Below, in pieces: positions 1-17,645 of a stretch of 64,000 bases of DNA. The notes under the pieces were generated by a model. The model was not told the origin of the DNA. It made no database searches and was given only the letters and a program-made list of their open reading frames with translations. Origin of the DNA: Cycloclasticus sp. Lineage in GTDB: Bacteria > Pseudomonadota > Gammaproteobacteria > Methylococcales > Cycloclasticaceae. Each line of letters begins with the position of its first letter. Within the stretch, counting starts at the first letter, position 1. The DNA lies in contig JBFLJU010000001.1 of assembly GCA_040743155.1 (NCBI GenBank), positions 186,001 through 250,000 of the forward strand, read 5' to 3'. Position numbers and translations under genes: made by a program.

Positions 1-2544
1 AAATGCGTCATTAACGTATCGTCTGGCAATGACCCGTAAACGCCAACAGCAAGTGTCTTTCTCAAGGCCTAAGAATGTGTCAAGCGCTAAGTTTTGTTCT
101 TCCGAATAATTCCAGCGACCGACGGTGCTCCATTCTTTGCTGATGGGCCACTTAAATGATAGGTCTGTTTGCTCGATATCATTGGAATTTCCGTTGCTAT
201 CAAAGGTTCCTTCGTAACGAGAGCGGTAAGTTGCATTGAAGATACGGTTTGCTCCGTCACGATAATGAAACCCAAGCGTTGCTTTTTGGGTTTTACCCGC
301 GTGAGGATTGTATTGCAGCGCGGTGCGGGCTGACCATGTGTCGGTTAACTTTGCCGATACTTCTGTGACTAAGTCGGAGGTGTTTTTTGTAATGGGCGTG
401 CTAGTGGGCTTTAAGCCTACATCAAGATCATCGAAGTAGACAATAGTGCCAATACTCGCTCTTAGGCGCTCGCTACCGGTGTTAGACTCAATAAGTCGTG
501 AGGTGAGTGCTAACGTTAACTGGTTTGCATCGGCCACTCGGTCAGCACCTGAATAACGGTTCTCTCTAAATAGCTGGTTAAAGCTGAAGTCGTATTCTGA
601 GGTGTCAAACAATGGAATATCATCTTGGTTCTCGTGCGGAACGTATAAATAATAGGCGCGTGGCTCGAGGGTTTGGATCATGCCTCCAGCAAAGTTCAGG
701 TCTCTTTCAAAGAATAACCCAGAGTCAACGGATAAGATGGGTAGCGTTCTACTTTGCTGGCTGTCCACTCCCGCGGCTTGATCCTGTAAGCGGTACTCGG
801 TATGTCTTAAGCTTAGCCTAGGGGTAATGAATCCAGCAGGTGTTCGGAATGGGACGCTAATGCCAGGGTGCAAATCAACTCGTTTAGCATCAACATCGGC
901 GCTGTGCTGAAAGTATACAAACTCATTGCGCATGCTGACTTTCGCAATACCAAAGGCTTCGGTTTCACGCAGGTTAAAAAGAACTTGTGGTAGACGACGA
1001 TGCGGCCTATTAGCACTAGAAATAGACTCATCAATAGAATCGTAATTGTCTATTTTAGTGAGTAAGCTCCAGCTATCGGCTCGGTAGTTTAAACTGGCTT
1101 GGCTTCTTAAATAGCGGTTACTGGAAATACTAAGGTTGTTGCCAAAATCTTCTAAATAATCATCATCCGACATGTAATTCAGGTCTAGCTCTGAGCTTAG
1201 GCGGGAACTGATGGTTGATTTGTTTTGCAATGAGAATTGGCCACGTAAATCATCGGTGTCGGTATCACTAAGAATTTCGGCCGCTACTTGGCCTTCGCTG
1301 CTGTCGGTTAGGTATCGAAACTCGCCACCTAGCATCAAACCACGATCGCTCATGATTCGCGGTGTAATAGTGGCGTCATAGTTTTCAGCAATATTCCAAT
1401 AGTAAGGAATTGCGAAGTCTAAGCCGGTTGTGTCGGAGTTACCAAACGTTGGTGTTAAAACACCGGACTGGCGTCGATCATCAATTGGGAAACTGATGTA
1501 CGGTGTGTATAACAATGGAATATCAAACACTTCAACCCAAACGTCACGTCCAGTTCCGCGGCCTGTTTCTTTGTTGAGTTCCAGCGTTCTAGCTTGGAGT
1601 TCCCAATCGCTAACGCTGGGTGCGCAGGTGGTATAAGTAATATTTGTTGATTGGCTGATATCACGGTTAATGAGACGAGTCGACTGGGTTGTGCCTCGTG
1701 CATGAGTCCCTTCAATAATAAACCGACTGTTTTTGAACTCGCCGGTATCGTTGCTAAGCTGAAGCGTTGCTTGATCACTGTGCAGGGCGAATCCATTTTC
1801 TTGGTAGAAAACATCACCAGATGCTGCTGCAATTTCTTTATTGTTGTTGAAAGTAACGCGGTCGGCGGTAATAGATTGGTCGGCGCGTTTTACTAAAACA
1901 TCACCACTAAATTGAGCATCATTCTGGTCGAGAATTTCGGCGTAATCAGATTGGATGCTCACTTCTGCATTTAAACGACTTTGCTGGATAGCATTTCTAC
2001 TGTCACGAAGTTCTGCTGTCGAGACCTCGCAGGTATCCCAAGGGTCAGCTTCAAGTTGCTGAATCATTAGGTGGAATAATGAATTATTTCTAATGCGATC
2101 AGAGGATGTGCTGCTAGGTAATTCGACAGCCGCTACACTGGCAACTTCAATACTGCTAGGCGCGCTAGTTTGGGTGCAATCCCAAGTGGCATTTGCGCCA
2201 GCTTGGCAATCCCATGAGCCGTCATTGTTCATGCTTGAAACTGCCACAGGTGCCTTTTTAGTGGTTAAAGGTGTTGCTTGACGAGTTAGTTGAACACGAG
2301 GCACCGAAGGATTAGCTGTTTTTTTTGCAGGTGACTCGGCAATAGTGCTTTCAGCGCTGACGTTTTCATCAATGGCTGTAGGCTCAGGCTGCTTAGCTAA
2401 AGGCTTGCTGGAGGCGGAACAATCCCATGTTTCACCGTCACTTGCAAGGTTACAGTCCCACTGAGAATCGCTAAAACCGAAAGTTTGTGATGCGGTAAAA
2501 AATAGCGCTAGGCTAAGAAAAAAATGTTTGTACGAAGTGTTAAT
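1..2544 (-). CDS. lptD: LPS-assembly protein LptD, 3' end cut by window edge
   Basis: LptD is the outer-membrane barrel that, with LptE, inserts lipopolysaccharide into the outer leaflet. The minus frame is open from the stop at 2568-2566 to position 1, and 848 residues are present. Visible: a signal-peptide-like N-terminus (hydrophobic FLSLALFF, residues 9-16), WDC motifs with Cys31, 42, 113 and 123, a YTTC cysteine at 307, and the hallmark Cys832-Cys833 pair of the C-terminal disulfide network (E. coli C724-C725). Some tens of residues are probably missing. No ATG, GTG, TTG or CTG exists between the upstream stop and the signal peptide. I infer an ATT start at 2544-2542, seven bases after AAAAGG. 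Divergent from amgK. Confidence 0.93.
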   Translation of the reverse strand, partial: MNTSYKHFFLSLALFFTASQTFGFSDSQWDCNLASDGETWDCSASSKPLAKQPEPTAIDENVSAESTIAESPAKKTANPSVPRVQLTRQATPLTTKKAPVAVSSMNNDGSWDCQAGANATWDCTQTSAPSSIEVASVAAVELPSSTSSDRIRNNSLFHLMIQQLEADPWDTCEVSTAELRDSRNAIQQSRLNAEVSIQSDYAEILDQNDAQFSGDVLVKRADQSITADRVTFNNNKEIAAASGDVFYQENGFALHSDQATLQLSNDTGEFKNSRFIIEGTHARGTTQSTRLINRDISQSTNITYTTCAPSVSDWELQARTLELNKETGRGTGRDVWVEVFDIPLLYTPYISFPIDDRRQSGVLTPTFGNSDTTGLDFAIPYYWNIAENYDATITPRIMSDRGLMLGGEFRYLTDSSEGQVAAEILSDTDTDDLRGQFSLQNKSTISSRLSSELDLNYMSDDDYLEDFGNNLSISSNRYLRSQASLNYRADSWSLLTKIDNYDSIDESISSANRPHRRLPQVLFNLRETEAFGIAKVSMRNEFVYFQHSADVDAKRVDLHPGISVPFRTPAGFITPRLSLRHTEYRLQDQAAGVDSQQSRTLPILSVDSGLFFERDLNFAGGMIQTLEPRAYYLYVPHENQDDIPLFDTSEYDFSFNQLFRENRYSGADRVADANQLTLALTSRLIESNTGSERLRASIGTIVYFDDLDVGLKPTSTPITKNTSDLVTEVSAKLTDTWSARTALQYNPHAGKTQKATLGFHYRDGANRIFNATYRSRYEGTFDSNGNSNDIEQTDLSFKWPISKEWSTVGRWNYSEEQNLALDTFLGLEKDTCCWRLRVIARRYVNDAF

Positions 2545-2619
2545 GTTAAAGCCTTTTATTTGAGTCTAACGTAGGTTGTATAAAATCGCATAGAATGACG
2601 AATTCTTCAATGTTACTTG

Positions 2620-16181: not shown

Positions 16182-17645
16182 ATGTATAACAAATCATTAA
16201 AAGAACTGTCTGCGAGTCTTCGCAATAAAGAAGTGTCAAGTGTTGAGCTAAGCCAATACTTTTTAGACCGTATTAAGCGTTTTGATAGCGACTTAAATAG
16301 CGTCGTGACACTAAATGAGGAGGCTGCATTATTAACAGCGCAGCAAGCCGATAAGGTTATTCAGTCCGGCGAAGCTGGTTTACTGACGGGGATCCCGTTA
16401 CTTCATAAAGACATTTTTTGCACACAAGGCTTAAAAACCAGTTGCGGCTCAAAAATGCTCGATAATTTTATTGCGCCTTACACGGCAACAGCGGTGAGTA
16501 AATTAGAGCAAGCGGGCGCGATCACCTTGGGTAAAACCAATATGGATGAATTTGCGATGGGTTCATCTAATGAAACGAGTTTTTATGGCAGCGTAAAAAA
16601 CCCTTGGGATTTAAGCACGGTACCTGGCGGCTCTTCGGGCGGCTCTGCGGCGGCTGTTGCTGCTCGTCTAGCGCCGTTGGCAAGTGGCACAGATACCGGC
16701 GGTTCAATTCGTCAGCCGGCTGCTTTTTGTGGTATTACCGGCATTAAACCGACCTACGGGCGTGTGTCGCGTTACGGCATGATTGCCTTTGCTTCGAGCT
16801 TAGACCAAGGCGGTGCGATGGCGAAAAGTGCAGAGGATGCGGCGATTATGTTGCAAGCGATGTCGGGGTTTGATGAAAAAGATTCCACCAGCGTTGATAA
16901 GCCAGTGGATGATTTATTGGCTCATTTGGGCGACTCCATAAAAGGTTTAACCGTTGGTTTGCCAAAGGAGTTTTTCACCAAAGACCTTGATGGCGATATT
17001 CGTGAAAAAATTGAAGAAGCGATAGATACCATTAAATCAGCGGGTGCAACGGTAAAAGAAATCAGTTTGCCGAATATTAATTTGTCTGTGCCAGCCTATT
17101 ATGTGGTGGCCCCTGCTGAGTGTTCAGCCAATTTGTCGCGTTTTGATGGCGTGCGATTTGGGCACCGCTGCGAATCACCTAAAGACTTAGAAGACCTTTA
17201 TAAGCGTTCTCGCGAAGAAGGCTTTGGCGATGAAGTGAAGCGTAGAATTATGATTGGTGCTTACGTTTTATCGGCAGGCTATTACGACGCATATTATAAA
17301 AAAGCTCAGCAAGTTCGTCGTTTAATTAAAAATGACTTTGTTGAAGCGTTTAAAGAAGTTGATATTATCGCCAGTGCAACTGCGCCATCGCTTGCGTTTG
17401 CCTCGGGTGAGAAAAAAGATGATCCAGTATCCATGTATTTGTCGGATATCTTCACGATTGGCGTTAACTTGGCCGGCTTGCCGGGCATGTCGGTGCCGTG
17501 TGGCTTTATTGATAATAAGCCGGTAGGCATGCAACTGATTGGCAATTATTTTGAAGAATCTCGCTTACTCAATGTGGCGCATCAATATCAACAATTAACA
17601 GACTGGCACCTTGCAGTGCCGGCTGGATACGAGCAGGAGGCGTAG
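16182..17645 (+). CDS. gatA: Asp/Glu-tRNA amidotransferase subunit A
   Basis: GatA is the glutaminase/amidase subunit that releases ammonia for tRNA amidation. The amidase Ser-cisSer-Lys triad is visible: lysine in LLHKDIF (about residue 76), cis-serine in [10 protein letters not shown] (about 152), and nucleophile in [10 protein letters not shown] (about 176). Length 487 is normal. The gap from gatC is 86 bases. The stop is 2 bases before gatB, whose ribosome site lies within the gatA end. Confidence 0.97.

Follow-up and report, generated by a model that had tools for sequence, protein, structure and literature searches.

A conserved ATT start codon, probably kept by selection, at lptD of Cycloclasticus and its parallel in mreC

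ATT and ATC start codons are normally avoided in bacteria and, to our knowledge, the documented non-AUG starts disfavoured by IF3 belong to only a handful of bacterial genes. IF3 represses infC, which starts with ATT, as well as sigR, which starts with GTC; sigR becomes deregulated when it is given a canonical start (PMC5472188). Repression of non-cognate ATT starts by IF3 is also supported by a second work, which presents pcnB as the second AUU gene of Escherichia coli (PMC9410913) and from which we take the statement that this AUU start limits pcnB expression (Binns and Masters 2002, via PMC9410913). In a reconstituted system, AUU initiation with the CAU anticodon declines as IF3 rises (PMC10158994). 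Conserved starts that lower initiation have been found in Staphylococcus aureus ccpN (AUA) and cvfC1 (AUU) by comparison and ribosome stalling (PMC13009471), and non-canonical starts are fixed in six conserved Listeria genes (PMC13068326).

We describe here a gene of this kind, lptD, in a stretch of 64,000 nucleotides (hereafter, the window) corresponding to positions 186001-250000 of a single-contig Cycloclasticus genome of 2,563,313 bases. Cycloclasticus is a marine oil-degrading genus, and LptD is an essential outer-membrane protein. In the open-access literature we found no paper on an lptD gene with an AUU start codon. Elsewhere in the window, genes between ~29300 and ~63300 match only 3-5 of the 8 compared genomes, with 77-99% identity, and those flanking this region mostly match 8/8, with 49-95% identity; the region looks like an integrated mobile element.

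The lptD start region and its conservation in Cycloclasticus

The lptD frame, on the minus strand, begins behind an in-frame TAG (2568-2566), exactly where the initial annotation had placed it, and reads ACT CAA ATA AAA GGC TTT AAC up to an ATT at 2544-2542, which is followed by AAC ACT TCG TAC AAA CAT TTT TTT CTT AGC CTA GCG CTA TTT TTT. A Shine-Dalgarno (SD) sequence, AAAAGG (2557-2552, minus strand), precedes the ATT by a 7-nt spacer, CTTTAAC. The minus-strand frame of the window offers no ATG, GTG, TTG or CTG from the TAG to the hydrophobic core of the signal peptide, so that on this point, as on the 7-base distance, the annotation was right. The signal peptide region (2470-2544, minus strand), (f)Met-Asn-Thr-Ser-Tyr-Lys-His-FFLSLALFFTASQTFGF, was assigned by inspection and contains a hydrophobic stretch conserved in the genus. 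The earliest in-frame ATG, GTG or TTG is a GTG at 2304, located 80 codons 3' of the ATT and beyond the signal peptide. The mechanical ORF list opens lptD at this GTG and so loses the first WDC motif as well as the signal peptide; any annotation limited to ATG, GTG and TTG could do likewise. The identity of the protein is given by Pfam (PF04453, LptD, E = 2.7e-107), together with an N-terminal LptA-like domain (PF03968, E = 1.7e-05). Counted from the ATT, the coding sequence occupies 1-2544 of the minus strand and runs off the window; it has 888 codons in the whole genome. Folding of the RNA around the start of lptD in one species, in segments of 61 and 92 nt, gave z-scores of -0.46 and -0.32, nothing unusual.

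We compared this region in the 18 available Cycloclasticus species genomes, that of the window among them; it is to this genus that the named GTDB relatives with the nearest LptD sequences (mostly 57-80% identity) belong. Once the region 5' of lptD was aligned, all 18 showed the same succession of an SD, 7 nt, ATT or ATC, and A. The start codon is ATT in 16 genomes and ATC in two (G011 and G015). Seventeen of them have AAAAGG as the SD, with the spacing unchanged at 7 nt, and the remaining one (G012) has TAATGGG; the codon is invariably preceded by C or T and followed by A. Twelve genomes have no ATG, GTG, TTG or CTG at all from the last in-frame stop to the ATT/ATC. This stop lies 15 nt 5' of the codon, with four codons in between, in G002, G006, G007, G010 and G016, and at -15, -24 or -30 in other species. 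In the other six, the in-frame codons are an ATG at -48 (G014, G017, G003 and G015), a GTG at -102 (G001), or, in G012, an ATG at -12 without a good SD plus a CTG at -18. The rest share none of these, and no canonical start is common to the lptD orthologues of the 18 genomes. The comparison of 5' ends with homologues that had been proposed as a check, with ATG as the outcome that would refute an ATT start, found ATG in 0/18, and initiation of lptD at ATT (ATC in two species), now strongly supported by these alignments, is in our judgement very probable.

Among the related families of the order whose lptD start could be read (for example G023, G029, G021, G033, G028, G039, G030 and G024), an ATG is found near the signal peptide. 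The ATT state would therefore have arisen in or before the Cycloclasticus ancestor and, as far as tested, it appears confined to the genus.

Persistence of the weak codon and control genes

If the ATT is the start, the protein would put up with an ATG in its place and the ribosome would prefer one; that 18 lineages lack it indicates that the weak codon has been maintained. We aligned 16 lptD genes, with the window's gene as reference, and third bases of fourfold codons differed from that gene at 61-73%, close to saturation. Of the 94 columns whose fourfold codon box is common to all sequences, 2 contained only pyrimidines and none reproduced the pattern of the start codon (nearly all T, no purine). 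Given silent sites so near saturation, the non-ATG state seems to be kept by selection. These data bear on the alternative that survives best, namely that the ATT is indeed the start but has no regulatory meaning, being a tolerated accident whose sensitivity to IF3 is incidental. Promoter strength could compensate for such an accident in an essential gene, but a single T-to-G change would have restored ATG, and the sole change observed, to ATC, leads to another non-cognate codon; we regard this alternative as unlikely.

As a control, we paired 203 genes with those of a second species (G014) across 450 kb of the genome. Nearly all of them have an ATG, GTG or TTG, shared or their own, or else a conserved upstream stretch that is part of a gene overlapping in a different frame, recognizable by its near lack of silent differences. 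Many silent differences combined with the absence of a shared canonical N-terminal start were found, among the 203 genes in the two species, only in lptD and mreC, a count outside which stands a small glutaredoxin-like ORF. With its 18/18 genomes and this control, the arrangement at the lptD start exceeds chance. The glutaredoxin-like ORF (LTFYTTDGCHLCEE, plus strand, genome positions 95944-96267) has no obvious N-terminal ATG, GTG or TTG, and G014 has an ATG just 5' of it. A first control in the window had flagged four ORFs besides lptD, of which only mreC proved real when read by hand; lipB has a conserved GTG, and a DUF493-like gene and an ORF at 17555 have conserved ATGs.

The mreC gene (14622-13741, minus strand; Pfam MreC) has no ATG, GTG or TTG at its N-terminus. 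In the window, the sequence after the mreB stop is TAATAAAAAAGGCTATTCACT ATA AAA CCC ATT TTC, with the start codon at 14622-14620, and ATA (as ATA AAA) is found in 16/16 readable Cycloclasticus genomes. In the order and the class (Gammaproteobacteria), readable mreC genes begin mostly with ATA, ATC or ATT; a Lys codon usually comes next, and some starts lie directly 3' of a stop, as in TAG ATT ATT AAA CCG TTA TTT (L209). The class sample contains a single ATG start (L212) and a single GTG start (L201), and TTG is likely in two cases (G022 and G036). A limited search of the open-access literature yielded no report on the mreC start codon. The initial annotation was silent on mreC, which lies in the same window and has the same property, and the pattern that includes mreC may be the more important result.

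Alternative starts and the conserved upstream block

A conserved block, TTGAAGA...CATTCTATGCGATTTTATAC (2578-2610, minus strand), lies 5' of lptD in the genus, and its core or second half, CTATGCGATTTTAT, recurs in the nearest family (G023 and G029), more weakly in G021. We consider that it is probably a promoter, TTGAAG-N17(ending in TGC)-GATTTT with a spacing of 17-18 nt, at 2582-2610 of the minus strand, a position conserved in nearly all the genus; as a scan of 2400-2760 for consensus sigma-70 promoters detected no site, it is on this conservation that we infer its function. The block contains an ATG, which belongs to CATTCTATGCGATTTTATAC, is the one found at -48 and lies at 2591-2589 (minus strand) in the window, within the likely promoter, where it would be a decoy. 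Translation of lptD could be imagined to begin at this ATG, in ATGCGATTTTATAC, which is located 47-50 nt 5' of the ATT in most species and runs into the lptD frame without interruption in G014, G017, G003 and G015. Nevertheless, its frame differs from that of lptD in G000, G001, G004, G008, G010 and G012; in G002, G005, G006, G007, G011, G013 and G016 the frame agrees but a stop intervenes; and the codon is AAG in G009 and GTG in G010. While the distance from SD to start codon is constant, that from the block to the SD varies, not always by multiples of three. In addition, the promoter-like block accompanies a separate ATG further down in the nearest family. On account of frame changes, stops and the absence of this ATG from G009 and G010 we rejected it as the lptD start, and such a start is very improbable.

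Equally improbable is that the true start is another rare codon nearby, either the ATA at 2559-2557, the one further rare codon that the upstream frame contains, or the codons directly 5' of the ATT. Starting at this ATA would make the n-region more basic (MKGFNINTSYKHFF), but nearly all other species have CAA, TAA, TGA or CCA in the corresponding column, and for this lack of conservation we rejected it; the two codons 5' of the ATT are freely variable (TTT AAC, TTC CCC, CGT CCC, GAC ACT, TGT ACT). The ATT/ATC is the sole candidate common to the species, and an unseen upstream start, one of the reservations in the initial annotation, was accordingly rejected. Its other reservation, a sequencing or assembly error that changed ATG into ATT, can be dismissed almost completely, since only the rarity of ATT starts speaks for it and ATT or ATC, nowhere ATG, occupies the equivalent place in 17 other species genomes from different projects.

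IF3 sensitivity and likeness to known systems

In Cycloclasticus, infC itself reads TTTGGAGATTGTAAAATCGCAACAAAA or a close variant, with ATC after GGAG, in the 16/16 genomes read; an example of such a locus lies near genome position 663503. The IF3 of the genus can be aligned from end to end with solved IF3 structures and is of the normal type. An infC gene starting at ATC together with a normal-type IF3 makes repression of lptD by IF3 plausible, and by analogy with the known cases we consider it rather probable that lptD initiation is sensitive to this factor, a response that the initial annotation had suggested. In the mechanism that we propose, ordinary initiator tRNA would read the lptD ATT or ATC as fMet, and the AAAAGG block 7 nt upstream would position the ribosome on it. 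Owing to the third-base mismatch with the CAU anticodon, initiation would be slow and IF3 could reject it. LptD synthesis would thus be throttled and would go up when free IF3 drops relative to ribosomes, alongside that from infC (ATC) and mreC (ATA).

To become functional, the LptD barrel must pair with LptE and form disulphides. The weak codon seems to be kept by selection, presumably because a slow-folding, disulphide-bonded outer-membrane protein should not be overproduced. Such control of dose is a possible, still tentative, reason for the weak start of lptD, and the overall picture suggests that LptD is made at a deliberately low, adjustable rate. Taken as a whole, an ATT start, rather probably sensitive to IF3 and possibly limiting dose, is the best explanation of the locus, and one in which we have good confidence.

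More broadly, these observations suggest that weak start codons hold envelope proteins at low dose, lptD across the genus and mreC across much of the class. It is conceivable, though unlikely on balance, that lptD (ATT) and mreC (ATA) form a small group of envelope genes under IF3 control, coupled by way of infC (ATC) to the ratio of IF3 to ribosomes. If so, the rates of outer-membrane and cell-wall assembly in Cycloclasticus would track translation capacity, and the link between mreC and IF3 would extend to much of the Gammaproteobacteria.

Compared with the systems described so far, lptD joins a known kind, that of genes with conserved non-canonical starts. Its counterpart within the window is mreC, likewise an envelope gene with an ATA, ATC or ATT start, although the state of mreC is widespread in the class and that of lptD, within the limits given above, is restricted to the genus. 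Like infC (AUU in E. coli, ATC in Streptomyces and in Cycloclasticus), lptD has a conserved non-cognate ATT or ATC with an SD, kept against ATG, but infC is autoregulated through its own product, whereas LptD has no role in translation. Like lptD, E. coli pcnB is an individual gene with an ATT start that does not belong to the translation initiation apparatus; the gene is a different one, and Cycloclasticus pcnB has mostly TTG near its N-terminus. The ccpN and cvfC1 starts come with extended SD pairing, whereas that of Cycloclasticus lptD has AAAAGG only. Finally, Streptomyces sigR (PMC5472188) shares with lptD a lineage-wide non-canonical start in a gene unrelated to translation; its start is GTC instead of ATT, its repression by IF3 is experimental, and it holds the sigma factor below its anti-sigma factor.
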